From Streptomyces sp. NBC_00162 (GTDB lineage: Bacteria; Actinomycetota; Actinomycetes; Streptomycetales; Streptomycetaceae), in the NCBI RefSeq assembly GCF_024611995.1, contig NZ_CP102510.1:124001-188000 (forward strand): 64,000 nt of DNA, given 5' to 3'. The notes under the pieces are model-generated. The model was not told the origin of the DNA and ran no database searches. It was given only the letters and a program-made list of their open reading frames with translations. Position 1 is the first letter of the stretch, and the number at the start of each line of letters is the position of its first letter. Shown here in pieces: positions 25,954 through 62,145 of the stretch. Both the position numbers and the translations under genes were made by a program.

Positions 25954-26072
25954 CTCCCGGTGGCCGCGTCCACCGCTGCTCCGGCTCTGCTCAAGCAGTC
26001 CTGACCAGGCTGGTCACGACGGAATCCTCGGACAGATACCAGGGCGGCACGCGGGGCGCTCCTCACACATGT

Positions 26073-26101: not shown

Positions 26102-26190
26102 TTTGCGTGCACCTGCGGCACCCGCTGCTTTGGCCTGAGCGGCCGCGCGTCGGCCGTTCACCCGGTTTTCCGACACACCCAAGGAGAGGT

Positions 26191-28692: not shown

Positions 28693-28707
28693 CGGAGTCG
28701 ACCACCA

Positions 28708-29559
<852 letters not shown>

Positions 29560-29624
29560 CCGGGCGCGCGTACGCACCGACCGCCCCCCGCCCCCCCGCA
29601 TCGAAGACGACAGGACGGAACGAG

Positions 29625-29879
29625 ATGAGCACGGACAACAAGGCCAGGATCGCGGAGTACCTCTCCCGCTTCATCCCGGTGCAGGACCTCAAGGACGACC
29701 AGGACATCTTCGAGCTCAGCTTCGTCAGCTCGATGTTCGCGATGCAGCTCGTCTCCTTCGTGGAGCACGAGTTCGGCATCACCGTCGAGAACGAGGACCT
29801 GGAGCTGGAGTACTTCCGCTCCATCAGCGCCCTCGACGCGTTCGTCAGCCGCAAGCTGGCCGCGTCGGTCCCCCAGTAG
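29625..29879 (+). CDS. Methoxymalonyl-pathway acyl carrier protein (FkbJ-like)
   Basis: This is an 84-residue carrier protein. The attachment Ser lies in FVSSMFAMQLVSFVEHEFG; the residue before it is Ser rather than the usual Asp, as is common for this carrier class (SLFAMQLV type). It lies between the 3-hydroxyacyl dehydrogenase and the acyl-CoA-dehydrogenase-like gene. It is expected to carry glyceryl- through hydroxymalonyl- to methoxymalonyl-thioester. The 65-base gap upstream has a run of C residues but no obvious hairpin. Confidence 0.92.
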   Translation: MSTDNKARIAEYLSRFIPVQDLKDDQDIFELSFVSSMFAMQLVSFVEHEFGITVENEDLELEYFRSISALDAFVSRKLAASVPQ

Positions 29880-29900
29880 GCCGAGCGGAGCCGACCCCAG

Positions 29901-31079
29901 ATGACGACGATGCTCACCGCGGAGCAGGCGCAGGCCCAGAAGGAGTTCCGGGCCTTCGCCGACACCCGTGTCGCCCCGTACGCCGATGCCTGGCACCGGG
30001 CCCAGCGCACCCCGCCCGAGGCCGTCCGGCTGCTCGCCGACGAGGGCCTGCTCGGGCTGCCGGTCCCGGCCGAGTACGGCGGTGGCGGCTGCGACGCGGT
30101 GACGCTCGGCCTGCTCGCGGCCGAGCTCGGCCGCGCCTGCTCCTCGCTGCGCAGTCTGCTGACCGTGCACACGATGGTGGCGCACGCCGTCGCCCGCTGG
30201 GGCACCCGCGCCCAGAAGGACACCTGGCTGCCCCGGCTCGCCCGCGGCGAGCGCATTGCCGCGCTCGCCGTGTCCGAGCCGGGCACCGGCAGTGACGCCT
30301 CCGCCGTCACCACCCGGGTCACCCGTGACGGCGAGGACTGGATCCTCGACGGCCACAAGAAGTGGATCACGTACGGCGAGACCGCGGACCTGTTCCTCGT
30401 CGTCGGGCGCGGCGAGCAGGGCCCCACCGCCCTGCTCGTCGAACGGGACACCCCGGGCCTGCGCACCGAGCTGATCGAGGACATGATCGGCATCCGCGCC
30501 TCGATGACCGCGCACGTGTACTTCGACAACTGCCGCGTCCCCGGCACGAACCTGCTGGCCCGGCCGGGCCTCGGCGTCTCCCACGTGACCGGCGCGGCCC
30601 TCGACCTCGGCCGGTACACGGTGGGCTGGGGCTGCGTCGGCATCCTCGACGCCTGCCTGGACGCCGGCACCGACTATGCGTCCGAGCGGGTCCAGTTCGG
30701 CGTCCCCATCCGGGAGCACCAGCTGGTCCGCCGCATGATCAGCGACATGTACACCTCCGCCCGGGCGGCCCGGCTGCTCTGCCTGGAGGCGGGCCGGCTG
30801 CGCGACGCGCGCGACCCGGGGGCACTGGCCGCCACCTCCATGGCCAAGTACTTCGCCTCCACCGCCGCCGCCCGCGCCGCCACCGACGCCGTGCAGATCC
30901 ACGGCGCCAACGGATGCGGCCCCGACTACCCCGTACAGCGCCTGCTCGGTGACACCAAGGTCATGGAGGTCATCGAGGGCAGCTCCCAGCTCCACCAGGT
31001 CGGCCTCGCCGAGTACGCCTTCCAGGAGCGGGCCCCGTTCCGCCGCACCCCCGCCGCCGCAGCCCGTGGAAGTGAGTGA
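29901..31079 (+). CDS. Acyl-CoA dehydrogenase-like enzyme of methoxymalonyl pathway (FkbI-like)
   Basis: This is a 392-residue flavoprotein of the acyl-CoA dehydrogenase fold. FAD/substrate motifs are AVSEPGTGSDAS and WITYGETADL. The catalytic Glu is in MEVIEGSSQLHQ, and QIHGANGCG is near the C-terminus. In methoxymalonyl-ACP formation this enzyme and the 3-hydroxyacyl dehydrogenase together oxidise the ACP-bound C3 unit to the malonate level. It starts 22 bases after the carrier gene and ends four bases before FkbH, so the operon is tight. Confidence 0.93.
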   Translation: MTTMLTAEQAQAQKEFRAFADTRVAPYADAWHRAQRTPPEAVRLLADEGLLGLPVPAEYGGGGCDAVTLGLLAAELGRACSSLRSLLTVHTMVAHAVARWGTRAQKDTWLPRLARGERIAALAVSEPGTGSDASAVTTRVTRDGEDWILDGHKKWITYGETADLFLVVGRGEQGPTALLVERDTPGLRTELIEDMIGIRASMTAHVYFDNCRVPGTNLLARPGLGVSHVTGAALDLGRYTVGWGCVGILDACLDAGTDYASERVQFGVPIREHQLVRRMISDMYTSARAARLLCLEAGRLRDARDPGALAATSMAKYFASTAAARAATDAVQIHGANGCGPDYPVQRLLGDTKVMEVIEGSSQLHQVGLAEYAFQERAPFRRTPAAAARGSE

Positions 31080-31082
31080 CCG

Positions 31083-31140
31083 ATGACGACGACCACCGAG
31101 ACGACGACCACCGAGACGACCACCACCAAGACGACCACCG
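31083..31140 (+). repeat. Imperfect ACGACCACC/GAGACG repeat encoding a Thr-rich tail
   Basis: The first 58 bases of the FkbH gene consist of imperfect units built from acgacgaccaccgag-like blocks. They encode TTTTE TTTTE TTTTK TTT. It looks like replication slippage at the 5' end of the gene and is length-variable in principle. Confidence 0.75.
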
Positions 31141-32156
31141 TCAAGTGCGTGGTGTGGGACCTCGACAACACCGTCTGGGACGGCGTCCTGCTGGAGGACA
31201 CCGAGGTCACCCTGCGCCCCGAGGTCGTGGAGACCCTGCGGATCCTCGACGAGCGCGGCATCCTGCACTCCGTCGCCAGCCGCAACGACCACGGCGCGGC
31301 CATGGCCAAGCTGGAGGAGTTCGGCATCGCCGAGTACTTCCTCTACCCGCAGATCAACTGGGGCAACAAGTCCGAGTCCGTGCAGGCCGTGGCCAAGGCG
31401 ATCAACATCGGCATCGACACCCTCGCCTTCGTCGACGACCAGCCCTTCGAACGCGACGAGGTCGCCTTCGCCCACCCCGCAGTGCGCTGCATCGACGCCG
31501 TCGACGCCGCGGGCATCCCCGGCCTGCCCGAGATGCACCCCCGGTTCGTCACCGCCGACTCCCGCGAGCGCCGCCACCTCTACCGCGCCGACGCGCAGCG
31601 CAACGCCGCCGAGGAGTCCCACGAGGGCACCTCGGAGGAGTTCCTCGCCTCGCTCGGCATGAGCTTCACCATCAGCCCCGCCGAGGAGCGCGACCTCCAG
31701 CGCGCCGAGGAGCTGACGGTCCGTACGAACCAGCTCAACGCCACCGGCTACACCTACTCGTACGAGGAGCTGGACGCGTTCCGCCGCTCCCCGGACCACG
31801 ACCTGCTGGTCGCCGGTCTGGAGGACAAGTACGGCACCTACGGCAAGATCGGCCTCTCGCTCGTTGAGCGCGGCGAGGACGTGTGGACCGTCAAGCTGCT
31901 GCTGATGTCCTGCCGCGTGATGTCCCGCGGCGTCGGATCCGTGCTGCTCGGCCACCTGATCCGCGAGGCCCACCGGGCCGGGGCCAAGCTGCGCGCCGAG
32001 TTCGTGCCCACCGACCGCAACCGGACCATGTACATCACCTACAAGTTCGCCGGCTTCCGCGAGATCGCGAAGAAGGGCGACATCTCGGTCCTGGAGAACG
32101 ACTTCTCCCGGATCCCCGAGTTCCCCCCGTACATGGACGTCACGCTCGGGAACTGA
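31083..32156 (+). CDS. fkbH: FkbH-like glyceryl-ACP forming enzyme
   Basis: This is a 357-residue protein. The HAD-type phosphatase domain has VVWDLDNTVWDGVL and FVDDQPFERDEV. A GNAT-like C-terminal domain follows (CRVMSRGVGSVLLGHLI). FkbH proteins take a glycolytic C3 intermediate (1,3-bisphosphoglycerate), dephosphorylate it and load it on the carrier protein, the committed step to methoxymalonyl-ACP. The family core starts at about residue 20. The first 19 residues are an almost pure Thr/Glu/Lys tail from a DNA repeat (see 31083-31140) and are probably a recent, dispensable extension. Confidence 0.95.
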   Translation: MTTTTETTTTETTTTKTTTVKCVVWDLDNTVWDGVLLEDTEVTLRPEVVETLRILDERGILHSVASRNDHGAAMAKLEEFGIAEYFLYPQINWGNKSESVQAVAKAINIGIDTLAFVDDQPFERDEVAFAHPAVRCIDAVDAAGIPGLPEMHPRFVTADSRERRHLYRADAQRNAAEESHEGTSEEFLASLGMSFTISPAEERDLQRAEELTVRTNQLNATGYTYSYEELDAFRRSPDHDLLVAGLEDKYGTYGKIGLSLVERGEDVWTVKLLLMSCRVMSRGVGSVLLGHLIREAHRAGAKLRAEFVPTDRNRTMYITYKFAGFREIAKKGDISVLENDFSRIPEFPPYMDVTLGN

Positions 32157-32213: not shown

Positions 32214-43935
<11,722 letters not shown>

Positions 43936-43943
<8 letters not shown>

Positions 43944-47360: not shown

Positions 47361-48545
47361 ATGCCTTCGCACATTGCGTTCTTCAATTTTCCGGCCATCG
47401 GCCACGTGAATCCGACGCTCGGCGTCGTCGAAGAACTGGTCAAGCGGGGGCATCGGGTCACCTGCACGGTGACCGACCACTTCGTGCCCGCAATAGAGGC
47501 CGTCGGCGCCGAGGCCGTCCGCTTCGACTCCGTATTCGGTGAGTTCTACCGCTCCCCTTACACGGAGGAGTCCAACGCGGGCGAGGGAATGCGTTGTCTC
47601 GATGACGCGACCGGCCTCGTCGAGCAGGTCAGCCCCTTCTACGAGAAGGACCGCCCCGACGTCATCGTCCACGACTTCATGTCGTGGGGCGGGCGTTTCT
47701 ACGGCGGTAAGCACGACATTCCGCTCGTCCGTCTCTACCCCACCTACGGGGCCAACGAGCACTTCTCCATCCAGGAGAAGTTCCCGCTGGCCCAATACGC
47801 CGACCCGCAGGTCATGGAAATGTTCGGCAAGCTCGCCGGTCTCCTTCCGGAATTCAACCTGCCGGCCGACCCGATGGCCTTCTTCCAGAACATCGAGAAG
47901 CTCGGCGTCATCTTCCTGCCGCGCGACTTCCACTACGACGGCGACACCTTCGACGACCGCTTCGTCTTCGCCGGCCCCTGCCTGGGCGACCGCTCCTTCC
48001 AGGGCTCGTGGGAGCCCGCCTCCGCGGACCGCCCGGTCCTGCTGATCTCCCTCGGCACCGCCGCCACCGGCTGGGCCGAGTTCTTCCGCACCGCGGTCAC
48101 CGCGTTCGGCGACACCGAGTGGGACGTCGTCATGGCCGTCGGCGACCACATCGACGCCGCCGACCTCGGCCCGCTGCCCGCCAACTTCGACGTGCGCCGC
48201 CACGTGCCGCAGCTCGAAGTCCTGCGCCACGCCAAGCTGTTCGTCACCCACGGCGGCATGAACAGCGTCATGGAGTCCCTGTACAACGGCGTGCCCATGG
48301 TCGTGATCCCCCAGATGAACGAGCAGAAGGCCAACGCCCTGCGCGTCGACGAGCTGGGCCTGGGCCGCCACCTGACCAAGGACGACACCACCGTCGACAG
48401 CCTGCGCGACGCCGTCGCGGCCGTGGCCGGCGACGGCGAGGTCACCGCCCGCGTGGAGCGCATGGGCGCCGAGATGCGCAAGGTCGACGGCCCCGCGGTG
48501 GCCGCCGACGCCATCGAGAAGTTCCTCGCGCAGAACGCCGGCTGA
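47361..48545 (+). CDS. Macrolide-type (GT1) glycosyltransferase, probable self-resistance
   Basis: This is a 394-residue GT-B enzyme. The N-terminal acceptor domain has FPAIGHVNPTLG with the catalytic His. The donor domain has THGGMNSVMESLYNGVP then PQMNEQKANA, the UDP-sugar signature of the OleD/OleI/MGT group. Such enzymes inactivate macrolides inside the cell by glucosylation. ATG 47361 follows GGAAGAGGGG. It is followed by a strong terminator and then by a secreted glucosidase gene, the same pairing as OleI with OleR in oleandomycin producers. No deoxysugar genes are visible in the window, which favours a resistance role over structural glycosylation. Confidence 0.93.
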   Translation: MPSHIAFFNFPAIGHVNPTLGVVEELVKRGHRVTCTVTDHFVPAIEAVGAEAVRFDSVFGEFYRSPYTEESNAGEGMRCLDDATGLVEQVSPFYEKDRPDVIVHDFMSWGGRFYGGKHDIPLVRLYPTYGANEHFSIQEKFPLAQYADPQVMEMFGKLAGLLPEFNLPADPMAFFQNIEKLGVIFLPRDFHYDGDTFDDRFVFAGPCLGDRSFQGSWEPASADRPVLLISLGTAATGWAEFFRTAVTAFGDTEWDVVMAVGDHIDAADLGPLPANFDVRRHVPQLEVLRHAKLFVTHGGMNSVMESLYNGVPMVVIPQMNEQKANALRVDELGLGRHLTKDDTTVDSLRDAVAAVAGDGEVTARVERMGAEMRKVDGPAVAADAIEKFLAQNAG

Positions 48546-48576
48546 CCCTCCGGGTCACACCCGAACCAGACGCGAC

Positions 48577-48626
48577 GCGAAAGACCCGCGCCCCCGGCCA
48601 TCCGGCCGGGAGCGCGGGTCTTTCGC
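48577..48626 (+). terminator. Strong hairpin terminator after the glycosyltransferase
   Basis: The 23-base arms (48577-48599 and 48604-48626) have a single mismatch around an ATCC loop, with GCGAAAGACCCGCGC at the base of the stem. It is the strongest hairpin in the window. It isolates the glycosyltransferase transcript from the glucosidase gene. Confidence 0.88.
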
Positions 48627-48713
48627 GCTGTACGGCGCCTCCAGCGCCTTTCGAGACGGTCTCACGAGGGTGGGGGCGGACGACTCAGCCCTCGGCCCCC
48701 TCTGGAAGGCATC

Positions 48714-50354
48714 GTGAAACGACTGTTGCAGACCGCGGCGGCGGTGATCCTCACCGCAGGACTCCTGGTTCCCACGGCGGCCGCCGAGGAAGCCTCCTCC
48801 CTGACCCAGCGAACGGCGAGGTTCGCCCAGCCGGGCTCCCTCTCCTCGCCGTTCGGCAAGGGCAGCTTCCGGTTCGGTGTCTCGAGCTCCGCCACCCAGA
48901 TCGAGGACCAGAACACCAACACCGACTGGTACAAGTGGACCCAGCCCGTCTCCGAAGGCGGCATGGGCAAGAGCCCCGCCGTCGGTGAGGGCGTCGACGG
49001 CTACACGCTGGCCATCGAGGACATCGACCTCATCGCCGCCCTGAAGGTGGACTCGTACCGCTTCGGCATCGAGTGGGCGCGCATCGAGCCGCGCCGCGGC
49101 CAGCTCGACGAACAGGCGATCGCCCACTACAACAAGGTGATCAACGCCCTCGTCGCCCGCGGCATCCGCCCGGTCGTCACCATCCACCACTTCGCCAACC
49201 CGGTGTGGGTGGACAACCCCGACGACCTCACCTGCGCCAACGGCCCCTCGGACACCAACCTCTGCGGGCTCGACCACCCCCAGGGCGGACCGCTCGTGGT
49301 CAAGGCCATGGCCGACCACTCCAAGCTGCTCGCCGAGCGGTTCGGCGACCGGGTCCACGAGTGGGTGACCCTCAACGAGCCCGGCGTCTACATGATGTTC
49401 TCGCACGCCTTCGGCGCGGGCCCGCCCGGCAAGGCCAACCTGCCCACCAACTTCGACACGAAGTTCGCGCCCGCCGTGCGCACCTACATCGACGCCCACG
49501 CCGCCATGTACAAGGCGATCAAGAAGGTGGACCCGGGCGCCAGCGTCGGACTGACCGCCAGCGTCAAGCAGTACGAGGCCGTCCGCGACGGCAAGATCAG
49601 CACCGAGCCGCGCGACATTGCCGCCCGCGACCGCTTCCGCCGCTTCTTCGAGCTGAACTTCCTCGACTCGCTGCGGAACGGCACCTTCGACGCGAACTAC
49701 GACGGCACCCCCGACGAGCAGCACCCCGAGTGGAAGAACACCCTCGACTGGCTCGGCATCCAGCTCTACGACCGCACCGGCGTCACCGACCCGACCACCC
49801 CCGGGCCGACCACCCTGCCGGTCATCAACGTCGACGTGTGCGGCGCACCGCCCTGCTTCCCGCTCAAGGACCCGACCTACTTCATCCCCGACATGGGATA
49901 CGAGTCGGACCCGCAGGGCCTCTACCCCGTCCTCAAGGACTTCAGCCGCCGCTACAAGGGCCTGCCCCTGCTGGTCTCCGAATCCGGCATGGCCACCGCC
50001 TCGGGCAAGCGCCGCGCCGAGTTCATCGTCCGCGCCCTGGAGCAGATCCAGCGGGCCCGGGCCGAAGGCGTCGACGTCCGCGGCTACTACCACTGGAGCC
50101 TGATGGACAACTTCGAGTGGCTCGGCGGCTACAAGCCGCGCTTCGGCCTCTACGCCGTCGACCGCACCACCATGAAGCGCACCCCCACCGAAGCGGTGGG
50201 CGTCTACGCCCAGATCGCCGGGTCCCGGAACCTGAGCCCGGCCCTGCGCGCCCAGTACGGCGGCAGCGGCCCGCTCACCCCGGAGCCGGGCAACTCACCC
50301 GCCTCACCCCCGGCCGGCACCGCCGGCCCGGCCGTCACCGGCCGCCGGGACTGA
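48714..50354 (+). CDS. Secreted GH1 beta-glucosidase, probable prodrug activator
   Basis: This is a 546-residue protein. GTG 48714 has GGAAGG before it. A Sec signal peptide is clear: MKRLLQT, a hydrophobic core, and a cleavage site near AAAEE, residues 24-25. The GH1 barrel has acid/base Glu in TLNEPGVY and nucleophile Glu in LLVSESGMA, where the usual family motif is (I/V)TENG. The C-terminus is Pro/Gly-rich. In oleandomycin producers OleR, a secreted glycosidase, removes the protective glucose outside the cell. Sitting directly after an OleI/OleD-like glycosyltransferase, this enzyme should play that part. A general cellobiase is a less likely alternative. Confidence 0.92.
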   Translation: MKRLLQTAAAVILTAGLLVPTAAAEEASSLTQRTARFAQPGSLSSPFGKGSFRFGVSSSATQIEDQNTNTDWYKWTQPVSEGGMGKSPAVGEGVDGYTLAIEDIDLIAALKVDSYRFGIEWARIEPRRGQLDEQAIAHYNKVINALVARGIRPVVTIHHFANPVWVDNPDDLTCANGPSDTNLCGLDHPQGGPLVVKAMADHSKLLAERFGDRVHEWVTLNEPGVYMMFSHAFGAGPPGKANLPTNFDTKFAPAVRTYIDAHAAMYKAIKKVDPGASVGLTASVKQYEAVRDGKISTEPRDIAARDRFRRFFELNFLDSLRNGTFDANYDGTPDEQHPEWKNTLDWLGIQLYDRTGVTDPTTPGPTTLPVINVDVCGAPPCFPLKDPTYFIPDMGYESDPQGLYPVLKDFSRRYKGLPLLVSESGMATASGKRRAEFIVRALEQIQRARAEGVDVRGYYHWSLMDNFEWLGGYKPRFGLYAVDRTTMKRTPTEAVGVYAQIAGSRNLSPALRAQYGGSGPLTPEPGNSPASPPAGTAGPAVTGRRD

Positions 50355-50436: not shown

Positions 50437-53400
50437 ATGAGCAACGCCCAGGTGAACAGCGGCACCGCTGCCGCACCCGTGCCCGTCGCCGCGGACATAG
50501 CCGCCCGGCTGCGGGAGACGATCGCCGGACTCCTGGAGATCGGCCCCGGCTCGGTGGACGAGAACCGCTCCCTCCGGGACCTGGGCATGACCTCCGTCTC
50601 GATCGTGGCCATGCTGGAGAGCGTCTCCGCCTGGCTGGGCCGCCCCGTCCCCGCCTGGGTCGCCTGGCAGTACCCCACCGTGGCCGCCCTCGCCGGCCAC
50701 CTCGCGGGCGACGAACGGCCCGCCGCGCCCGGCGCCGCAGCCGCCCGCGCCCGCGGCCGCGCGCACGCGCAGGAGCCCATCGCCGTCGTCGGCCTCGGCT
50801 GCCGGCTGCCCGGCGGCATCGAGACCCCCGACGCGCTGTGGCAGAGCCTCCTGGACGGCGTCGACGCCGTACGCGAGGTCCCCCGCGACCGCTGGAACGC
50901 CGACGAGTGGCTCGACCCCGACCCCCGCGCCCCGGGCCGGATGACCACCCGGTGGGGCGGCTTCCTCGACGACGTCGCAGGCTTCGACGCCGAACTGTTC
51001 CGCATCTCGCCCGCGGAAGCCCGCCAGATGGACCCCCAGCAGCGCATGGCCCTCGAAAGCGCCTGGGCCGCCATCGAGGACGCCCGGATCGTCCACGGCG
51101 ACCTCGAGGGCACCCGCACCGGCGTGTTCATGGGCACGATGGCGCAGGAGTACCACCTGGCCACCGGCGCCGACCCGCAGAACATCGAGACCCACTCCGC
51201 CACCGGCTGGGACAACTCGATCATCCCGGCCCGCATCGCCTACACCCTCGGCCTGCACGGCCCCGCCCTCGCCGTCGCCACCGCCTGCAGCTCCTCGCTG
51301 ACCGCCACCCACCTCGCCGTCCAGAGCCTGCGCTCCGGCGAGTCCGACCTCGCCCTCGCGGGCGGCGTCAACGTCATGCTCAGCCCGAACACCACCGTCG
51401 CCATGACCAAGTTCGGCGGCATGAACCCCGACGGCCAGTGCCGCGCCTTCGACGCCGGCGCGGGCGGCTACGTACGCGGCGAGGGCTGCGGCGTCGTCGT
51501 CCTGCGCCGCCTGTCCGACGCCCTCGCCGAGGGCGACCGGATCTACGCCGTCATCCGCGGCAGCGCCGTCAACAACGACGGCGCCTCCAACGGCCTCACC
51601 GCCCCCAACCCCCGCGCCCAGGCCGAGGTCCTGCGCGCCGCCTGGCAGGACGCCGCCGTCGCCCCCCGGCACGTCTCCTACGTCGAGGCCCACGGCACCG
51701 GCACCCTCCTCGGCGACCCCATCGAGGCCGAGGCGCTGGGCACCGTGTTCGCGGAAGGCCGCGAGGAACCCCTGCGCATCGGCTCGGCCAAGACCAACTT
51801 CGGCCACCTGGAACCCGCCGCGGGCGTCGTCGGCCTGATGAAGACCGCCCTCGCCCTGCACCACGGCGAACTCCCCGCCAGCCTCCACTTCGAGACCCCC
51901 AACCCGCACATCGACTTCGAGGCCAACCGTCTCGAGGTCGTCGCCGACCGCCGCCCCTGGCCGCACGCCGGCCGCCGGTACGCGGGCGTCAGCGGCTTCG
52001 GCTTCGGCGGAACCAACGCCCACGTCGCCCTCGAGGAGGCCCCCTACCGGCGGCGCCTGCTCGTACCGCTGGCCGCCGACACCGACGAGGAGCTGCACGA
52101 GGCCGCCGAGGCCCTGGCCGCCCGCGCCCGCGGCGGCCACGGCTGGTACGCCCCCGAACTCCTCGCCCGCGCCACCGGAGCCCAGCGCATCGTCGCCGCC
52201 GTCACCCACCCCGACGAGCTCGCGGACGCCCTGCGCGAGGGCCTCGACACCCGCACGCCGCGCACTCCGGGCACCCGCCCCTCGCTGGCCTTCTTCTTCT
52301 CCGGCCACGGCTCCCAGTGGCTCGGCATGGGCCGCGACCTGCTCGCCGAACCCGCCTTCCGGACCGCACTGGACGCCTGCGACACCGCGATCTCCGAGGT
52401 CACCGGCTGGTCCGTCACCGAGGAACTGCTCGCCGGACCCGACACCTCCAGACTGGACCGCACCGACGTCGTCCAGCCCGTCCTGTTCGCCGTCCAGGTC
52501 TCCCTCGCCCGTACCCTGGAGGCCTGGGGCCTGGAGCCGTGCACCGTCTTCGGCCAGAGCATCGGCGAGGTCGCCGCCGCCGTCGTGGCCGGCGCCCTGC
52601 CGCTGACCGAAGGCGCCCGCCTCATCGGCACCTGGTCGCAGCTCATCGCCGAACGCGCCGCCGGCCAGGGCACCCTCCTGCTCTGCGAACTCCCGCTGGA
52701 GCGCGCCCGCGAGCTCGTCGCCCGCCACCCCGGCCGGATCTCCCTCGCCGGCCACCTCGCCCCCGGCCAGACCGCCCTGTCCGGGCCGCTGGACGCCGTG
52801 GCCGCCGTGGAACGCGAGCTCGCCGACGCCGGAGTGCGCTGCCAGCGCGTCCACATCGACTACGCCTCCCACAGCGAGCAGCTCACCGCGCTCGCCCCCG
52901 AACTCGAACGCCGGCTGGGCGCCCTGCGCACCGCCCCGGCCGCCATCCCCTTCTGGTCGACCGTCACCAACGGCTTCACCGACGGCACCGCCCTCGACGC
53001 CGCCTACTGGGCCCGCAACATGTGCGCCCCCATGCTGATCGCCGAGGCCGTCACCGCCCTCGCCGACGAACGGGGCCTCGCGATCGTCGAGATCGCCCCG
53101 CACCCCGTCGCCCGGCACTCCCTCAAGCGCACCCTGACCGCACTCGCCGAGGCGGACGCCGCCGGGAGCACGACCCCCGCCCCCGGCCCCTCCTCGGTGC
53201 TGGTCACCGGCCGCCGCGACTGCCCCGCCCGCCGCTCCCTCGAGGACGTCGCGGTCCGCCTGTGGTGCGAGGGCTACGACGTCGACTGGGGCGCCGTCAC
53301 CGGCCGGCCCCAGCGCCCCGCCCCCACCGCGCCCGTCGCCCTGACCGTCTCCGGCAAGAGCGCCGCCGCCCTCGCCGCGAACGCCGCCGCCCTCGCCGAC

Positions 53401-56400
53401 CACCTGGCCGGCGCCTCCACCGCCACCCTCCTCGACACCGCGTACACGGCCGCCGGCCGCCGCTCGCACCTGGAACACCGGGCCGTGGCCGTCGCCACCA
53501 CCGCCGACGAGGCCGCAGACGCGCTGCGCGCCCTGGCTCAGGGAGCGCCGCACCGGGCCCTGACCGAGGGCACCGCCCGCCGGGGCGATCTGGCCGTGCT
53601 GTTCACCGGGCAGGGCAGCCAGCGTCTCGCCATGGGACGCGTCCTGTACGGGGCCTTCCCCGCCTTCCGCCAGGCCTTCGACGAGGTGTGCGCGGAACTC
53701 GACCGCCACCTGCGGATCCCGCTCGTCGCCGTCCTGTTCGCCGACCCCGACGGCGCCGACGGCGCGCTCGTCCACGAGACCGAGTTCACCCAGCCCGCCC
53801 TGTTCGCCGTCGAGGTCGCCCTGTTCCGGCAGTGGCAGGCCTGGGGCGTGGAGCCGCGGGTCCTGGCCGGCCACTCGGTCGGCGAGCTCGCCGCCGCGCA
53901 CGCGGCCGGCGTGCTCGGTCTGACCGACGCGGCCCGCCTGGTGGCCGCCCGCGGCCGCCTCATGCAGGCCTGCGAGCCGGGCGGGGCCATGGCCTCCGTC
54001 GAGGCGTCCGAAGCCGAGGTGCTGGCCGTCCTCGCCGACGTGGACGGCCGGATCGCGGTCGCCGGCCTCAACGGGCCGGCGCAGACCGTCGTCAGCGGCG
54101 ACACCGCGGCCGTCACCGCCGTCATCGGCCGGTTCGCCGACCGGGGACGCCGAACGCGAAGGCTGGAGGTCTCCCACGCCTTCCACAGCCCGCACATGGA
54201 CGCGATGCTCGACGCCTACCGGGACGTGGCCCGCGAGTGCGCGTTCGACGCACCGCGGATCCCGCTCGTCTCCACCGTCACCGGCACGTGGACGGACACG
54301 GACCTCGCACCGGGCGAGGGCATGCGCTCCGCGGAGTACTGGGTCCGCCAGGTCCGCGAACCCGTCCGCTTCCTCGACGCCATGGCCACCCTGGAGCGGG
54401 CCGGCATCGCCCGCTACCTCGAATGCGGCCCCGCCGCCGTGCTGTCCGCGACGGGCGCCGGCTGCATCGAGCGCGAGGTCCCCTTCATCGCCTCGCAGCG
54501 CGCCGACGAGAGCGACGAGGCCCGCACCCTCGTCCAGGCCCTCGGCGCGCTCCACGTCAGCGGCCAGGACATCGACTGGTGCAAGGTGTTCACCGGCACC
54601 TCCGCAACCGTCACCGACCTGCCCACGTACGCCTTCCAGCGCGAACGCCACTGGATCGACGCCCCCGAGCGGGCCCGAGGCGGCCGGTCGGCCGCCGACG
54701 ACGCGCTGTGGCAGGCCGTCGGGAGCGGTGCGGCCGAGCGCGTCGCCGAACTCCTCGGCGTCGGCGACAGCGTCACCGACAGCACCGCCGTCGCCGCCCT
54801 GCTGCCCCACCTGGCCGCCTGGCGCGAACGCCAGGACCACGCCGACACCGTCGCCGACTGGCTGTACGAGCAGACCTGGGAGCCCGCCCGGGCGCTCCCC
54901 GCAGCCCCCGCCGCCTCCGCAGGCGACTGGCTGCTCGTCGCCCCCGCCGCGGCGCAGGAGCTGGCCGCCGCCGTCGCCGAGGCGCTCACCGCCGCCGGCG
55001 CCACCGTCCACCGCCTCCCGGCCCACGACGACCGCACCGCCTACGGGGCCCCGCTGGCCGCGCTCACCGCGGAACTCGGCGACCGGCACTTCACCGGCGT
55101 CGTCGCCCTCACCCCCGCCGACACCACCGCCCACCCCGCCCACCCGGCCACCACCACGGGCGCAGCCCAGAGCCTGGCCCTCGTCCAGGCCCTCGGCGAC
55201 GCCGCCGTCCGCGCCCCGCTGTGGATCGTCACCCAGGGCGCCGTCCACGCCGCACCCGCAGACCCGGCGGCCCGGCCCGAGCAGGCCCTCGCCTGGGGCC
55301 TGGGCCACGTCATCGCCCTGGAACACGGCACCCGCTGGGGCGGCCTCGTCGACCTCCCGGCCGACCCGGCCCAGGCCCTGGCCGAGGCCCCCCGTCTCGC
55401 CGCAACTGTTAACGGCGTTAACGCCGTTAACGCTCCGGGCACCGGCTCCGCCGGGGCCGAGGAGCACCTGGCCCTGCGTCCCACCGGCGTGTACGTCCGC
55501 AGGCTGCGCCGGGCCACCGCGCCGGCCGCCACCCCCTGGACCCCCCGCGGCACCGTCCTCATCACCGGCGGCAGCGGGGCCCTGGCCGGCCACCTCGCGC
55601 AGCGGCTCGCCGAGCGCGGCGCCGAACACCTCGTCCTCGTCTCCCGGCGGGGCCCCGCGGCCGAGGGGGCCGCCGAGCTCACCGCCCGCCTCGAAGCCGC
55701 CGGCGCCCGCGTCACCTTCGCCGCCTGCGACCTCACCGACCGCGGCCAGACCCAGCGGCTGCTGGACGCCCTCGACGCCGAGCAGCCGCCCCTGCGCGCC
55801 GTCTTCCACACCGCGGGCATCCTCGACGACCGGCTGCTGGACCGCCTCGACACCGAGGCCCTGGCAGCCGCCGCCGCGCCCAAGCTCGGCGCGGCCCGCC
55901 TGCTGGCCGAGCTCACCCGCGACCACGCCCTCGACGCGTTCGTCCTCTACTCCTCCGTCGTCGGAGTCTTCGGCAACCTCGGCCAGGCCAACTACGCCAT
56001 GGCCAACGCCGCCCTCGACGCCCTCGCCGAAACCCTGCGTGCCGGCGGCGTCCCCGCCCTCAGCCTCGCCTGGGGCCCCTGGGCCGACGGCGGCATGACG
56101 CACGGCGCCGCCGAAGCCCAGCTGCGCGCCGCCGGACTCGCCCCCATGGCCGTGGCCCGTGCCCTGACCGCCCTGGACTCGGCCCTCGCCTCGGGCCGCT
56201 CCCTCGTCGTCGCCGACATCGACTGGCAGAAGGCCGCCGCCGGCTACGGCGAAGCCCGCCCGCGCCGTTTCCTCGACGAGATCGCGGAGGCCCGTACCGC
56301 ACCGGACACCGCCGCCGCGGGCACCGCCCCGGCCGAAACCGAGACGAACCCGTTCCTGAGCAGCGTCCTGGCCCTGCCCGAGGCCGACCGCGCGGCCCAC

Positions 56401-59400
56401 GTCACGGCCGTGCTCGCCGCCGAGGCCGCCGCCGTCCTCGGGATCAAGGACCCGCAGGCCCTCGACCCCGAACGCGGCTTCAAGGACCTCGGCTTCGGCT
56501 CGATGATGTCCATCGACTTCGCCGCCGGCGTCCAGAAGCGCACCGGCGTCACCACCCCCAAGACGCTCGCCTTCGACTGCCCCAACCTGCTCACCGCCAC
56601 CGACTGGCTGCTCGCCAAAATCGCCCCCGCGGCCCCCGCGGCCCCCGCGGCCCCCGCGGCCCCCGCGGCCGCCCCGGCCGGCCCTCAGGCCGCCCCCCGG
56701 TCCGGCCGCGGCGACGAGCCGCTCGCCATCGTCGGCGTCGGCCTGCGCATGCCCGGCGGCGCCCACGACCTCGACAGCCTGTGGACCGTCCTCGCCGAAG
56801 GCCGCGACACCGTCGGCACGGTGCCCGCGGACCGCTTCGACATCGAGGCCTTCTACGACGCCGACCCGGACGCGGAGGGCCGTACGTACGCCCGCCACGC
56901 CTCCTTCCTCGACGACGTCGCCCACTTCGACGCCGCCTTCTTCGGCATCAGCCCGCGCGAGGCCGAGCCGATGGACCCCCAGCACCGCCTGCTCCTCGAA
57001 GCGGCCTGGACCTCCCTCGAGGACGCCGGCATCCGGCCCCGCGAGCTGCGGGACTCCCGTACGGGCGTGTTCGTCGGCGCCGGCGTCGGCGAGTACGGCA
57101 AGTACCGGCAGGGCGGCGCCCCCGACACCTACACGCTGACCGGCACCCTGCCCAGCTTCAACGCGGGCCGCCTCTCCTACCACCTCGGCCTCCAGGGCCC
57201 CGCGCTGTCCGTGGACACCGCCTGCTCCTCCTCCCTGGTCGCCCTGCACCTGGCCTGCGAGGCGCTGCGCAGCGACGAGTGCGAACTCGCCCTGGCCGGC
57301 GGCGTGCAGGTGCTCGCCGACCCTGGTGCGTTCATCGCCCTCAGCCGTTCGCATGCGCTGTCCCCGGACGGCCGCAGCAAGACCTTCTCCGCCGAGGCGG
57401 ACGGCTACGGCCGCGGCGAGGGCGTCGGCGTACTCGCCCTCATGCGGCTCTCGGACGCGCAGGCCCAAGGCCGCCCCGTCCTCGGCGTCATCCGGGCGAC
57501 CGCCATCAACCACGACGGCGCCAGCAGCGGCATCACCGCCCCCAACGGCACCTCCCAGCAGAAGGTCATCCGCGCCGCCCTCGCCTCGGCCGGCCTCGCG
57601 CCCGCCGACGTCGACTACGTCGAATGCCACGGCACGGGCACCTCGCTGGGCGACCCGATCGAGGTACAGGCGCTGGCCGCGGTCTACGGCGAAGGCCGCA
57701 CGCCGGGGCGCGAGCTCGGGCTGGGCACGGCCAAGAGCGTCATCGGGCATCTGGAGTCGGCGGCCGGTGTCGCGGGCGTCTGCAAGATGCTCGCCTCCTT
57801 CCGGCAGGACGCCCTCCCGGCGACCCTCAACAGCTCCCCGCGCAACCCGAACATCGCCTGGGACGAACTCCCGGTCCGGGTCGTCGACTCGCACACGCCG
57901 TGGGAGCGGGACCTGTCGCGTCCGCGCCGCGCGGGCGTCTCCTCCTTCGGCCTGAGCGGTACGAACGCCCACGTGGTGCTGGAGGAGCCCCCGGCCGCCG
58001 CGCCGACCGCCGCCCCGGACACTGAGGTGACCGCGTCCTTCCACCCGGTGGTGGTGTCGGGGCGTGACGAGGCCGCGCTGCGGGAGCAGGCCGGCCGTTG
58101 GGCGGACTGGGCCGAGGAACGCCCCCAGGTTCCGGTGACCGATGTGGCGGCCACCGCCGCCCGCCACCGTTCGCACTTCGAGTCGCGGGCGAGTGTGGTC
58201 GCGGCTGATTCCGCCGCTCTGGTGGAGGCGCTGCGTGCGCTGGCCGAGGGCGTCTCGCACGACGCGGTGGTGACGGGCTCGGCCGCACGGCGCGGCAAGG
58301 TCGTCTTCGTGTACCCGGGTCAGGGCTCGCAGTGGGTGGGCATGGGCCGTGCGCTGCTGGCGGAGAACGAGGCCTTCCGTCAGGCGATCGACGCCTGTGA
58401 TGCCGCGCTGCGTCCGTTCACGGGCTGGTCGGTGCGTGAGGTGCTCTCCGGTGAGGAGGGTGACCACCCGCCGTTCGACCGGGTGGACGTGGTCCAGCCC
58501 GCCCTGTTCGCCATGGGAATCGGCCTCTCGGCGCTGTGGCGTTCCCTCGGGGTCGAGCCGTCGGCGGTGGTCGGTCACTCCCAGGGCGAGGTCGTTGCCG
58601 CTGTGGTGAGCGGTGCTCTCACTCTGGAGCAGGGCTCGCAGATCGTGGCGCAGCGCTCGCAGGCGGTCCTGGCCTGCGCGGGTCAGGGCGGTATGGCTCT
58701 GATCGAGCGCCCGGTGGCCGAGGTCGAGGAGTTCCTCGCCCCCTACGGTGATGCGCTGTCGGTGGCCGCGGTGAACACCTCCGGCTCGACGGTGATCTCC
58801 GGGCAGGCCGACGCGATCACGAAGATCGTCGCGGACCTGTCGGACCAGGGCGTCTACGCCCGCAAGATCAACGTGGACTACGCGTCCCACAACGCCCAGA
58901 TGGACCCGCTGCTCCCCGCCCTTGCGGAGGGCTTCAAGGGGATCCGTCCGCAGTCCGCAGAGATCGCCTTCTACTCCACGGTGACCGGTCAGGTGGCCGA
59001 CGGCGCCGAGCTGGACGGCACGTACTGGTGCCGGAACCTGCGTGAGCCGGTCCGCTTCGACCGGGCCCTGAACCAGCTCCTCGACGACGGCCACGGCGTG
59101 TTCGTCGAGATCTCGGCGCACCCGGTCCTGTCCATGCCGTTGACCGACGGCAGCGCGGAGCGCGGCGGCATCGTCGTCGGCTCGCTCAGCCGCCGCGACG
59201 GCACCCCGGCCCAGCTGCTGCGCAACCTCGGCCTCCTCCACGTCCAGGGCCACGACCTCGACTGGGACCTGGTCCTGGGCGCCGGAAGCCTCGTACCGCT
59301 CCCCTCGTACGCCTTCCAGCGCGAGCGCTTCTGGCTCCCCGTCTCCCAGGCCTCCGGTGACGCCGGCTCCCTGGGCCTGGAAGCCTCCCGGCACCCCTGG

Positions 59401-62145
59401 CTCGGCGCGGGCATCGAACTCGCCGACGCCGACGGCCACGTCTTCACCGGCCGCCTCTCGCTCACCGACCAGCCCTGGCTGCGCGACCACGGCGTCTTCG
59501 GCTCGGTCATCGTCCCCGGCACCGGCCTGCTCGAACTGGCCACGGCAGCCGCCCACGAGGCCGGGGCCGTCGGCATCGCCGAACTCACCCTCGCCGAGCC
59601 GCTGGTGATCGAGGACGCCGTACGCCTCCAGATCACCGTGGGCGCCCCGCACAACGGACGCCGCCCGATCACCCTCCACAGCCGCCCCGACGCTCCCGGC
59701 CGCGCCTGGACCCGCCACGCGAGCGGCGAACTGCTGCTCGACCCCGCCGGCCTGGATGCCCCCAGCACCCCGGACGGGTTCGCCGACCTCCGCAGCTGGC
59801 CGGTGGCCGGCGCCGAGCGGGTCGGCCTCGACGGGTTCTACGACCGCTTCAGCGCCCAGGGCATCGACTACGGCCCGGCCTTCCGGGGCCTGACCGAACT
59901 CTGGCGCAAGGGCAGCACGGCGTACGGGCTCGTACGTCTCCCCGACCCGGCCGCAGGCGCCGAGTACAACGTGCACCCGGCCCTGCTCGACACCGCCCTG
60001 CACGTGATGAAGGGCGCGACGGCGGGACAGGACGAACCCGAGGGCGCGCTGCTGCCGTTCGAGTGGACGGACGTCGAGCTGTTCGCGGCCGGCAGCGGAG
60101 AGCTCCGCGTCCGCATCGACGTGGAGCAGTCCGCCACCGGCCAGTCCGTCCAGGTCTGGGCCGCCGACGCGGCGGGCTCGCCCGTCGTCCGCGTCGGGGC
60201 GCTCCACCTGCGGCGGGCCACCGCGGACCAGCTGCGCGCCGCCCGTTCCACCGGCGCCCAGGACCTGCACCGGCTGGCCTTCCAGCCCGTACCGGCGGCC
60301 GCCGCAACCTCCGGGCGCCGCACGGCCGACCTCGTGGTCGGCGGCACCGGGGAACTCGCCTCGCTGCTCGGCATCGAGGCGGTGTCCGGCGTCGAGGCCC
60401 TGTCCGTCCGGCTGGCCCAGGGCGGCCCGGCACCCGCCCGAATCATCGTGGACACGACCGGCCGGGCGCCCGCCATGAGCCCGTCCGAGGCCGTGTTCCG
60501 CGGCGGCGAGTACGCACTCGTCCTGCTCCAGGCCCTGCTGGCCGACGAGCGGCTCGCCGGCACCGAACTCGTCTTCGTCACCCGCGGCAGCATCGGCGCC
60601 GCGGAAGGCGACCTGCTCGACGGACTCGCCTACGCACCCCTGTGGGGCCTGGTCAGGTCCGCCCGCGCCGAACACCCGGGCCAGAGCCTGCGCCTGGTGG
60701 ACCTCGGCCAGGAGAGCACCAAGGACGCCGTCGAGACCGCCCTGGCCTGTGCCGACGAGCCGGAACTCGCCCTGCGCGGCGGACAGCTGCTGGCGGCCCG
60801 CCTGGTCACGGCCGCCCGGCCCACCGCCACCAGCACCGGCGCCGGCGAGATCCGCACGCTCGATCCGCAGGGCACCGTCCTCATCACGGGCGGCGTCGGG
60901 GAGCTCGGCCGCGAGGTCGCCCGCCACCTGGTCCGCCGGCACGGCGTCCGGCACCTCGTACTCACCTCACGGCGCGGCGCCGAGGCGCCCGGAGCCGCGG
61001 AACTCATACAGCAACTCACGGAAGAAGGCGCGGAATGCGTGCGGGTAGAGGCCTGTGATGTCGGTCGTCGCGATGACGTGGAGAAGGTGCTCGGTCTTGC
61101 TGAGGAGGGTCGGCCCTGGACGGCCGTCCTGCACCTCGCGGGCGTCCTGGACGACGGTGTACTCCTCGGCCAGGACGCACAGCGGCTCGCTCATGTGATG
61201 GAGCCCAAGATCACCGGCGCCGTCCACCTCGACGAGCTGACCGCCGGCCTGGGCCTGGACCTGGCCGCGTTCGTGTTCTTCTCCTCCGCCGCCGGCACCG
61301 TCGGCACGGCGGGACAGGGCATCTACGGCGCGGCCAACGCCTGCCTCGACGCGTACGCGGCCCGCCGCCGCTCCGAGGGCCGCCCGGTCACCAGCCTCGC
61401 CTGGGGCCTGTGGCACCAGGCCGGGGTCGGCATGACCTCGCACCTGGGCACGGCGGAACTGGACCGGATGCGCCGCCAGGGCATCGCCCCGCTCAGCTTC
61501 GAGCACGGCCTGGACCTGCTGGACGCGGCGCTCGCCCGCCCGGCCGGCAACTTCGTCCCCCTGCAGCTCGATCTGCGGGCCGCGCAGGCCGAGGTGGACC
61601 AGGGCAGGCCCGCCCCCGCCCTGTTCCGGTCCCTCGTACGGACCCGGCCGCGCCGTGCCGAGGCCCCGGCCGCCGCCTCCGGCGGGCCGGCCGGTCTGAG
61701 GGAGCGCCTGCTGGCGGTGCCCGACGACCAGCGGGCCGACCTGGTGACGGAGCTGGTGCTGCGCGAGGTGGCCGCCGTACTGGGCCTGACCTCGACCGGA
61801 TCCCTCTCCCCGCAGGAAGTGCTCAAGGGCCTCGGCCTCGACTCGCTGATGGCCGTCGAGCTGCGCCGGCGCCTGGCGACGGCGAGCGGGGTACCGCTGC
61901 CCGCGACCCTCGCCTTCGACCACCCGACGCCCGAACACATCACGCGGCTGATCCTGAGCCGGCTGGACCTCCCGGCTCCGGCTCCGGCCGCGGCGGCGGA
62001 TGCGGATGCGGCGGCGACGATCGGGGATCTCGGCGGCGCTGACAACGGCGCTCACAACGGCGCGGACGACGACGAACGGTCCGTCGACGACCTCAACGCC
62101 GAGCTCGACGCCCTGTTCGCGGCCGAGGGATTCGGCCTCGACTAG
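50437..62145 (+). CDS. Modular PKS: ACP-KS-AT-AT-KR-ACP-KS-AT-DH-KR-ACP (initiating)
   Basis: This is a 3902-residue protein. ACP0 (20-95, Ser53); KS1 (113-538, TACSSS, so not KSQ); AT1 (612-918); AT2 (1048-1360); KR1 (1703-1935, LDD, B-type); ACP1 (1988-2058); KS2 (2094-2518); AT3 (2621-2908, YASH, methylmalonyl); DH (2984-3200, DHGVFG plus Asp in HPALLDTA); KR2 (3481-3712, LDD); ACP2 (3768-3842); C-terminal docking helix. AT2 has Ser1147, Arg1172 and HAFH: malonyl. AT1 has Ser708 in GQSIGE but Trp733 at the position of that Arg, and His624 in place of the Gln of GQGSQ. Loss of the Arg is typical of loading ATs for monocarboxylic starters. With the N-terminal carrier, AT1 probably loads ACP0 and AT2 serves module 1. 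ATG 50437 follows AAGGATG. Confidence 0.95.
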   Translation: MSNAQVNSGTAAAPVPVAADIAARLRETIAGLLEIGPGSVDENRSLRDLGMTSVSIVAMLESVSAWLGRPVPAWVAWQYPTVAALAGHLAGDERPAAPGAAAARARGRAHAQEPIAVVGLGCRLPGGIETPDALWQSLLDGVDAVREVPRDRWNADEWLDPDPRAPGRMTTRWGGFLDDVAGFDAELFRISPAEARQMDPQQRMALESAWAAIEDARIVHGDLEGTRTGVFMGTMAQEYHLATGADPQNIETHSATGWDNSIIPARIAYTLGLHGPALAVATACSSSLTATHLAVQSLRSGESDLALAGGVNVMLSPNTTVAMTKFGGMNPDGQCRAFDAGAGGYVRGEGCGVVVLRRLSDALAEGDRIYAVIRGSAVNNDGASNGLTAPNPRAQAEVLRAAWQDAAVAPRHVSYVEAHGTGTLLGDPIEAEALGTVFAEGREEPLRIGSAKTNFGHLEPAAGVVGLMKTALALHHGELPASLHFETPNPHIDFEANRLEVVADRRPWPHAGRRYAGVSGFGFGGTNAHVALEEAPYRRRLLVPLAADTDEELHEAAEALAARARGGHGWYAPELLARATGAQRIVAAVTHPDELADALREGLDTRTPRTPGTRPSLAFFFSGHGSQWLGMGRDLLAEPAFRTALDACDTAISEVTGWSVTEELLAGPDTSRLDRTDVVQPVLFAVQVSLARTLEAWGLEPCTVFGQSIGEVAAAVVAGALPLTEGARLIGTWSQLIAERAAGQGTLLLCELPLERARELVARHPGRISLAGHLAPGQTALSGPLDAVAAVERELADAGVRCQRVHIDYASHSEQLTALAPELERRLGALRTAPAAIPFWSTVTNGFTDGTALDAAYWARNMCAPMLIAEAVTALADERGLAIVEIAPHPVARHSLKRTLTALAEADAAGSTTPAPGPSSVLVTGRRDCPARRSLEDVAVRLWCEGYDVDWGAVTGRPQRPAPTAPVALTVSGKSAAALAANAAALADHLAGASTATLLDTAYTAAGRRSHLEHRAVAVATTADEAADALRALAQGAPHRALTEGTARRGDLAVLFTGQGSQRLAMGRVLYGAFPAFRQAFDEVCAELDRHLRIPLVAVLFADPDGADGALVHETEFTQPALFAVEVALFRQWQAWGVEPRVLAGHSVGELAAAHAAGVLGLTDAARLVAARGRLMQACEPGGAMASVEASEAEVLAVLADVDGRIAVAGLNGPAQTVVSGDTAAVTAVIGRFADRGRRTRRLEVSHAFHSPHMDAMLDAYRDVARECAFDAPRIPLVSTVTGTWTDTDLAPGEGMRSAEYWVRQVREPVRFLDAMATLERAGIARYLECGPAAVLSATGAGCIEREVPFIASQRADESDEARTLVQALGALHVSGQDIDWCKVFTGTSATVTDLPTYAFQRERHWIDAPERARGGRSAADDALWQAVGSGAAERVAELLGVGDSVTDSTAVAALLPHLAAWRERQDHADTVADWLYEQTWEPARALPAAPAASAGDWLLVAPAAAQELAAAVAEALTAAGATVHRLPAHDDRTAYGAPLAALTAELGDRHFTGVVALTPADTTAHPAHPATTTGAAQSLALVQALGDAAVRAPLWIVTQGAVHAAPADPAARPEQALAWGLGHVIALEHGTRWGGLVDLPADPAQALAEAPRLAATVNGVNAVNAPGTGSAGAEEHLALRPTGVYVRRLRRATAPAATPWTPRGTVLITGGSGALAGHLAQRLAERGAEHLVLVSRRGPAAEGAAELTARLEAAGARVTFAACDLTDRGQTQRLLDALDAEQPPLRAVFHTAGILDDRLLDRLDTEALAAAAAPKLGAARLLAELTRDHALDAFVLYSSVVGVFGNLGQANYAMANAALDALAETLRAGGVPALSLAWGPWADGGMTHGAAEAQLRAAGLAPMAVARALTALDSALASGRSLVVADIDWQKAAAGYGEARPRRFLDEIAEARTAPDTAAAGTAPAETETNPFLSSVLALPEADRAAHVTAVLAAEAAAVLGIKDPQALDPERGFKDLGFGSMMSIDFAAGVQKRTGVTTPKTLAFDCPNLLTATDWLLAKIAPAAPAAPAAPAAPAAAPAGPQAAPRSGRGDEPLAIVGVGLRMPGGAHDLDSLWTVLAEGRDTVGTVPADRFDIEAFYDADPDAEGRTYARHASFLDDVAHFDAAFFGISPREAEPMDPQHRLLLEAAWTSLEDAGIRPRELRDSRTGVFVGAGVGEYGKYRQGGAPDTYTLTGTLPSFNAGRLSYHLGLQGPALSVDTACSSSLVALHLACEALRSDECELALAGGVQVLADPGAFIALSRSHALSPDGRSKTFSAEADGYGRGEGVGVLALMRLSDAQAQGRPVLGVIRATAINHDGASSGITAPNGTSQQKVIRAALASAGLAPADVDYVECHGTGTSLGDPIEVQALAAVYGEGRTPGRELGLGTAKSVIGHLESAAGVAGVCKMLASFRQDALPATLNSSPRNPNIAWDELPVRVVDSHTPWERDLSRPRRAGVSSFGLSGTNAHVVLEEPPAAAPTAAPDTEVTASFHPVVVSGRDEAALREQAGRWADWAEERPQVPVTDVAATAARHRSHFESRASVVAADSAALVEALRALAEGVSHDAVVTGSAARRGKVVFVYPGQGSQWVGMGRALLAENEAFRQAIDACDAALRPFTGWSVREVLSGEEGDHPPFDRVDVVQPALFAMGIGLSALWRSLGVEPSAVVGHSQGEVVAAVVSGALTLEQGSQIVAQRSQAVLACAGQGGMALIERPVAEVEEFLAPYGDALSVAAVNTSGSTVISGQADAITKIVADLSDQGVYARKINVDYASHNAQMDPLLPALAEGFKGIRPQSAEIAFYSTVTGQVADGAELDGTYWCRNLREPVRFDRALNQLLDDGHGVFVEISAHPVLSMPLTDGSAERGGIVVGSLSRRDGTPAQLLRNLGLLHVQGHDLDWDLVLGAGSLVPLPSYAFQRERFWLPVSQASGDAGSLGLEASRHPWLGAGIELADADGHVFTGRLSLTDQPWLRDHGVFGSVIVPGTGLLELATAAAHEAGAVGIAELTLAEPLVIEDAVRLQITVGAPHNGRRPITLHSRPDAPGRAWTRHASGELLLDPAGLDAPSTPDGFADLRSWPVAGAERVGLDGFYDRFSAQGIDYGPAFRGLTELWRKGSTAYGLVRLPDPAAGAEYNVHPALLDTALHVMKGATAGQDEPEGALLPFEWTDVELFAAGSGELRVRIDVEQSATGQSVQVWAADAAGSPVVRVGALHLRRATADQLRAARSTGAQDLHRLAFQPVPAAAATSGRRTADLVVGGTGELASLLGIEAVSGVEALSVRLAQGGPAPARIIVDTTGRAPAMSPSEAVFRGGEYALVLLQALLADERLAGTELVFVTRGSIGAAEGDLLDGLAYAPLWGLVRSARAEHPGQSLRLVDLGQESTKDAVETALACADEPELALRGGQLLAARLVTAARPTATSTGAGEIRTLDPQGTVLITGGVGELGREVARHLVRRHGVRHLVLTSRRGAEAPGAAELIQQLTEEGAECVRVEACDVGRRDDVEKVLGLAEEGRPWTAVLHLAGVLDDGVLLGQDAQRLAHVMEPKITGAVHLDELTAGLGLDLAAFVFFSSAAGTVGTAGQGIYGAANACLDAYAARRRSEGRPVTSLAWGLWHQAGVGMTSHLGTAELDRMRRQGIAPLSFEHGLDLLDAALARPAGNFVPLQLDLRAAQAEVDQGRPAPALFRSLVRTRPRRAEAPAAASGGPAGLRERLLAVPDDQRADLVTELVLREVAAVLGLTSTGSLSPQEVLKGLGLDSLMAVELRRRLATASGVPLPATLAFDHPTPEHITRLILSRLDLPAPAPAAAADADAAATIGDLGGADNGAHNGADDDERSVDDLNAELDALFAAEGFGLD
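55408..55434 (+). repeat. Triple 9-bp GTTAACGSY repeat inside the PKS
   Basis: Three in-frame units GTTAACGGC, GTTAACGCC and GTTAACGCT encode VNG-VNA-VNA in the linker ahead of KR1. GTTAAC is strikingly AT-rich for this locus, and neighbouring units form two overlapping 15-base near-palindromes around one central base. It is either a slippage product in a tolerant linker or a protein-binding site. Confidence 0.75.
56623..56667 (+). repeat. Five tandem copies of a 9-bp GCCCCCGCG repeat
   Basis: Five exact units encode the flexible Ala/Pro linker (APAAPAAPA...) between ACP1 and KS2 of the PKS. The copy number is probably variable by slippage. Confidence 0.85.

Follow-up and report, generated by a model that had tools for sequence, protein, structure and literature searches.

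A predicted starter acyltransferase within the first extension module of a Streptomyces type I polyketide synthase carrying tandem acyltransferases

The 64,000-nucleotide stretch of Streptomyces sp. NBC_00162 analyzed here (the window) spans positions 124001–188000 of a contig of 388,840 bases (NZ_CP102510.1) in a genome of 9.0 Mb, and carries a type I polyketide synthase (PKS) gene whose first module holds two consecutive acyltransferase (AT) domains, AT1 and AT2. Pfam analysis of this open reading frame (ORF) recovered three PP-binding (acyl carrier protein, ACP), two ketosynthase (KS), three AT, two ketoreductase (KR) and one dehydratase (DH) domains. Pfam and phmmer, the latter with the window's own domains as queries, ordered them as ACP-KS-AT1-AT2-KR-ACP followed by KS-AT-DH-KR-ACP, which confirmed the order given for the module by an earlier sequence-only reading. 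By phmmer, the first module comprised residues 16–95 (ACP), 109–535 (KS), 613–935 and 1051–1385 (the two ATs), 1701–1890 (KR) and 1986–2080 (ACP), and the second module came after it. The gene and the parts of its first module are the following:

50437..62145, + strand: type I PKS gene, loading module and two extension modules, 3902 aa
50482..50721, + strand: ACP0, N-terminal ACP and putative starter carrier; Ser53 present in the motif GMTS
50761..52041, + strand: KS1; Cys284 (ATACSSS), HGTGT and the second His intact
52042..52281, + strand: KS-AT1 linker, from BLAST comparison of linkers
52273..53241, + strand: AT1, predicted starter acyltransferase; His624, Gln707, Ser708, Trp733, His812
53290..53586, + strand: AT1-AT2 linker, of the ordinary KS-AT type by identity to other linkers
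53587..54591, + strand: AT2, extender AT; GQGSQ, GHSVGE, Arg1172, HAFH
55537..56106, + strand: KR of module 1 (Pfam, phmmer)
56392..56676, + strand: ACP1 of module 1 (Pfam, phmmer)

The residues that the same reading had named (Ser708, Trp733 and His624 in AT1, Ser1147 and Arg1172 in AT2) were all found correct in the translation. AT1 is a PKS acyltransferase domain (PF00698), as seen from its profile match and its catalytic pair of Ser708 and His812, and its motifs are GHGSQ, GQSIGE, Trp733 and YASHS, the corresponding ones in AT2 being GQGSQ, GHSVGE, Arg1172 and HAFHS. The HAFH motif led us to take AT2 as presumably malonyl-type. In AT1 the nucleophile is preceded by Gln707, in the motif GQSIGE, where GHSxGE is usual, so that the His of GHSxG is replaced. 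Moreover, the position 25 residues past the nucleophile (+25) is occupied by Trp733 instead of the carboxylate-binding Arg, which by sequence places AT1 among starter-type (monocarboxylate) ATs.

The alignment of AT1 with loading and extender ATs, which had been proposed as a check, gave counts for this position. In one alignment, Arg was present at +25 in all 55 extender ATs and in all 21 AT2s, none of which had Trp, and the ten classical loading ATs presented Trp (nine) or Cys (one), in line with the claim that loading ATs lack the Arg. The loading AT of avermectin AVES1 (PDB 4rl1) shares the Trp exactly 25 residues past its Ser. Among 25 AT1s, the residue was Trp in 14, Arg in six, Met and Tyr in two each and Leu in one, and a free-standing AT1 homologue from S. 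monashensis also carried Trp. The 55 extender ATs were thinned from 82 collected, with one kept per locus outside the window. The near copies L038 and L044 were omitted, as were the truncated, frame-broken or degenerate AT2s of L013, L015, L016 and L040, which leaves 21 AT2 rows against 25 AT1 rows; L015, whose contig ends before AT2, was counted as an AT1 by similarity only. L064 was placed in the classical loading group with its Trp known and despite a partial KS (240 bits) ahead of it, and without it Trp would stand in 8 of 9; L055, L057, L068 and L072 presented only weak upstream KS matches (19–34 bits). L064 itself (G110:C108) is an internal starter-type AT with Trp at +25, lying after an ACP and the partial KS in the middle of a 9059-aa frame. 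The replacement of the Gln of GQGSQ by His624 had also been pointed out; the residue is there, but it does not serve as a starter mark, since its equivalent was found in 22/25 AT1s, including five of the six with Arg at +25, and in 2/10 classical loading ATs, 1/21 AT2s and 2/55 extender ATs, which ties it to the AT1 position and not to starter specificity.

The remainder of the module appears complete. KS1 looks like an active condensing KS and not like the KSQ type, in which Gln replaces the active-site Cys; a KSQ loading module was excluded because KS1 keeps Cys284 and has no Gln at its active site. With the Cys and both His of KS1 and the Ser of ACP0 in place, the module is equipped to load a starter and carry out one extension. 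Streptomyces sp. NBC_01546 and NBC_01296 each have this gene on a linear plasmid, with both ATs present and their motifs unchanged; the AT1s of these two strains are 97.9% and 85.5% identical, respectively, to that of the window, and this ruled out a frame or assembly artefact as the source of the tandem ATs. Between the window and NBC_01296, dN/dS was 0.37 for AT1 and 0.34 for AT2, indicating that purifying selection holds AT1 about as strictly as AT2.

The linkers suggest how the tandem arrangement was formed. The AT1-AT2 linker resembles its counterparts in PKS genes B, C and D (43–46% identity) and in module 2 of the same gene (38%), while the KS-AT1 linker had no BLAST match among the linkers and segments compared. 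AT2 thus has an ordinary linker and AT1 its own, so that a unit of linker and AT1 seems to have been placed between KS1 and the linker-AT that originally followed it. The free-standing homologue of S. monashensis, a protein of 466 aa (L120:8114-9514; G100:C135) with the motif GASIGE, aligned at 50% with the window over a region that begins at the end of KS1, covers AT1 and extends into the post-AT linker. It is likely a split-off AT1, and the PKS encoded after it has a single AT and opens with a KS from the tandem group.

The ancestry of AT1 was assessed in a tree of 85 ATs, whose bootstrap had not fully settled. One clade (100/100) united the free-standing homologue with 15 of 18 AT1s from actinobacteria, the other three (L023, L115 and L116) lying outside it, and all but one of the 15 AT1s in the clade presented Trp at +25, the exception having Leu. 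The ten classical loading ATs grouped separately (93/96), among methylmalonyl-type ATs. Forcing the AT1 clade, a set of 16 rows chosen after the tree was seen, and the classical loading ATs together cost 93 log-likelihood units, with a p value in the approximately unbiased test (p-AU) of 0.00058 when AVES1 was included and of 0.00024 in a first version before it was added. Descent of AT1 from loading ATs of the DEBS/avermectin type was consequently rejected, and the Trp of AT1 would have been gained separately from that of the classical loading ATs; a starter-type Trp has most likely evolved twice or more among PKS acyltransferases. A single clade of all AT1s was not rejected (p-AU 0.225 in the first test and 0.508 with AVES1 included), so that all AT1s may go back to one old origin; the branch sister to the actinobacterial clade, with L022, L025 and L121, was weakly supported (88/60). 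The AT2s were dispersed across the tree (8 changes), and the KSs of modules with AT1s of the clade also clustered (100/99), with two single-AT relatives inside the group.

The tandem layout had been considered unusual, which did not hold: ACP-KS-AT-AT was found in 25 loci besides the window. Of 24 loci fetched by AT1 similarity, 15 had this order, one (L015) was cut by the contig end and eight were without it; to these 15 were added seven plasmid loci and three more (L115, L116 and L121). Two of the loci are near copies, L038 of the window and L044 of L039; the second AT is represented only by its start in L013, is frame-broken in L016 and degenerate in L040, and the ACP of L115 was recognized by motif only. 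The hosts were Streptomyces, Actinophytocola, Crossiella and myxobacteria, the latter with seven loci (L022, L024–L027, L029 and L121), and in L029 the frame stops after the second AT. This recurrence in related bacteria and in myxobacteria speaks for a real design and not a one-off. A search of 99 other genomes, with at most 21 candidates scored per genome, gave no match at E≤1e-75, and another scan, which scored five candidates per genome (five of 146 in the window's own genome), allows no frequency to be derived. On plasmids, 14 records contained an ACP0 match, of which 11 were the same 11 that had the best AT1 matches, and this co-occurrence favors ACP0 as the partner of AT1; the other three (L046–L048) had ACP-KS with a single AT.

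Some of these loci presented further variations. L115 (G000:C2:74001-92000), a 1984-aa ORF on the minus strand, is a second tandem-AT module on the window's contig, outside the window; its order is ACP-KS-AT-AT-ACP, its first AT has GHSLGE and Tyr at +25, and it is 52% related to L023 of S. olivoverticillatus, whose first AT has Cys for Ser. The Nannocystaceae loci L024, L026 and L027 carry HGPGT in the KS and a reverse pattern, with the first AT intact and bearing Arg and the second AT damaged.

Taken with the layout, the active-site and +25 residues, the linkers, the selection and the recurrence, AT1 is very probably a loading acyltransferase placed inside the first extension module, which would transfer a non-dicarboxylic starter to ACP0, leaving KS1, AT2 and KR for the first extension; the substrate class, ACP0 as the acceptor and the order of events are what we infer. 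Ser708 of AT1 would take an acyl group that carries no free carboxylate, monocarboxylic or aromatic, and hand it to ACP0, AT2 would put a malonyl-type extender on ACP1, KS1 would take the starter from ACP0 and condense it with that extender, and the product would then be reduced by KR.

Several observations weigh against this proposal. Arg occupies +25 in six of the 25 AT1s (Pyxidicoccus, Polyangium, two of Enhygromyxa, Plesiocystis and G389), so the ACP-KS-AT-AT layout by itself does not imply a non-dicarboxylic starter, and the AT1 of S. solincola has Leu there despite its place in the clade. Two ATs outside the tally also depart from a strict +25 rule. One is L123, a Sorangium AT that occurs singly, with the motif GVSPGA and with Glu at +25, which belongs to a KS-AT-ACP module (L122 and L123 joined, 29250-33251, Sorangium So0157-2) downstream of a tandem-AT gene and is perhaps inactive. 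The other is L119 (G493:C2:160000-170000), a 1250-aa frame with two back-to-back ATs (Gln and Arg at +25) and no KS match. The single-AT loci L046–L048 indicate that an ACP can precede the KS with no AT1 present, and conversely the PKS that follows the free-standing AT1 lacks an N-terminal ACP. In L024, L026 and L027 the KS Cys is replaced by Ser and the motifs of AT2 are damaged. Finally, short ACP-KS-AT-AT genes are decaying in S. griseofuscus pSGRIFU1 (L040:10273-14082), where the ACP Ser, the KS Cys and the AT2 Ser are all lost, and in S. cellostaticus (L014), where the His of AT1 is lost. The idea that the pSGRIFU1 gene had retained only ACP0 and AT1 was dropped, given that the ACP Ser is lost too and that its KS region is unconstrained relative to L014 (dN/dS 1.37). 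The starter-type reading of Trp733 is sound for the AT1 of the window, for which sequence comparison speaks, and the layout alone is no guarantee of it.

The source of the starter brings in the neighboring genes. Nearly the same cluster is found on the linear plasmids of NBC_01546 and NBC_01296, and downstream of the tandem-AT gene there are two further PKS genes of two modules each. A P450 gene is also present in the surroundings, and the following were found upstream:

18200..25947, + strand: type II PKS cassette with KASIII, KS, chain length factor (CLF), two ACPs at 21920-22183 and 22248-22508, metallo-beta-lactamase (MBL)-fold hydrolase, SnoaL-like protein (minus strand), KR and aromatase/cyclase (ARO/CYC)
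26071..32156, + strand: genes for AT-ACP-FkbM, 3HCDH, acyl-CoA dehydrogenase and HAD, a set which we take to be of the methoxymalonyl-ACP type
32214..43943, + strand: terminal PKS and nonribosomal peptide synthetase (PKS-NRPS), KS-AT-ACP-C-A-PCP-KS-AT-KR-ACP-TE (C, condensation; A, adenylation; PCP, peptidyl carrier protein; TE, thioesterase)
47361..50354, + strand: macrolide-type glycosyltransferase and GH1 glycosidase

The first AT of the terminal PKS-NRPS has GSSQGE for GHSxGE, as do those of NBC_01546, NBC_01296 and S. monashensis, and is perhaps the one that handles the unusual extender.

The AT1 gene lies about 9–40 kb from a close type II CLF gene in six clusters (the window, NBC_01546, NBC_01296, S. 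monashensis, S. cellostaticus and S. griseofuscus pSGRIFU1), and the type II product is a possible starter for this cassette-bearing subgroup. It was accordingly considered that AT1 makes the handover between two kinds of PKS, with the aromatic acyl group of the cassette passing from a type II ACP or a CoA ester to ACP0, where it would prime the type I PKS-NRPS; the decaying genes of S. cellostaticus and S. griseofuscus would then be leftovers of such a relay. This is conceivable but rather doubtful. In another version, slightly more doubtful, AT1 would be a starter gate that accepts its acyl group from another carrier, the type II ACP of the 18–26 kb cassette, and not from CoA, in a VinK-like ACP-to-ACP transfer. 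The KS, CLF, ACP, MBL, KR and ARO/CYC proteins encoded on the contig of the tandem module in S. monashensis, S. cellostaticus and pSGRIFU1 are 59–78% identical to those of the window, the cassette of NBC_01546 is 98–100% identical and the CLF of NBC_01296 90%. The ACP-KS-AT-AT gene adjoins the aromatase/cyclase gene in S. cellostaticus and pSGRIFU1, and inspection of the genes at 18–26 kb revealed no CoA ligase. All this fits such a transfer, but these last two linked loading genes are the decaying ones, four plasmids with AT1 (W02, W04, W06 and W07) have no type II CLF at E≤1e-40, and in the seven genomes of L015–L021 the CLFs that were found lie on contigs other than that of AT1, although linkage is possible there because these are draft assemblies; there, S. 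thermovulgaris and WC-3742 carry genes resembling those of the cassette. The plasmid of WA1-19, with KASIII, CCR and hydroxyacyl-CoA dehydrogenase genes in the cluster and citramalate synthase nearby, has no CLF (E≤1e-40), so that its starter should differ from a type II product.

A role of AT1 as a second extender AT, offering a choice of extender on ACP1, is very unlikely. Tandem ATs with Arg in both copies do exist (L116, L025 and L029) and the AT1 model fits extender ATs as well as loading ATs, but Trp stands in AT1 at a position that is invariably Arg in the tallied extender ATs, AT1 remains one clade while AT2 is exchanged, and the N-terminal ACP would be left unexplained. Least probable of all is a non-functional or purely structural insert, to which the decaying relatives of pSGRIFU1 and S. 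cellostaticus could point, since Ser708 and His812 are intact, the dN/dS of AT1 is close to that of AT2 and the motif of AT1 is conserved across genera.

The ACP-KS-AT-AT layout, presumably one for loading, recurs in actinobacteria as well, where selection maintains it, and the exchange of AT2 around a constant AT1 constitutes a natural experiment separating the choice of starter from that of extender. The linkers of its own and the free-standing homologue make AT1 a plausible portable starter-loading part for engineering. Should AT1 indeed accept the product of the neighboring type II cassette, it would link aromatic and modular polyketide synthesis directly.

Among known systems, the closest are the split loading modules ACP-KS-AT-AT of the myxobacterial PKSs for soraphen (SorA), stigmatellin (StiA), myxothiazol/melithiazol and spirangien, in which starter loading is ascribed to the first AT. 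The layout is on this ground already known, and the module of the window, which shares the N-terminal ACP, the KS, the two ATs and the second ACP in one module, joins it. The Gln before Ser is common to AT1 of the window and to L022, L025 and L121, whereas the myxobacterial AT1s differ at +25, with Met in the two of Sorangium and Arg in the other five, against mostly Trp in the actinobacterial clade. AT-ACP didomains of the AVES1 type resemble AT1 in the AT fold, the Trp at +25 and the catalytic Ser and His, but classical loading didomains (one of which belongs to a PKS on pSGRIFU1 that we presume from gene context to be lankamycin-type) precede the first ACP and KS, in most cases retain GQGxQ and GHSxG, and fall within the methylmalonyl-type ATs; the AT-ACP order of DEBS and avermectin is not that of the window. 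The KSQ-AT-ACP modules, such as those of GfsA and pikromycin, also have KS-AT in the first module, but KS1 has Cys in place of the Gln and is preceded by an ACP. Finally, the discrete ATs of the VinK type are free-standing like the AT1 homologue of S. monashensis, from which the AT1 lineage can be seen to exist as a separate protein, whereas AT1 of the window is placed in cis.

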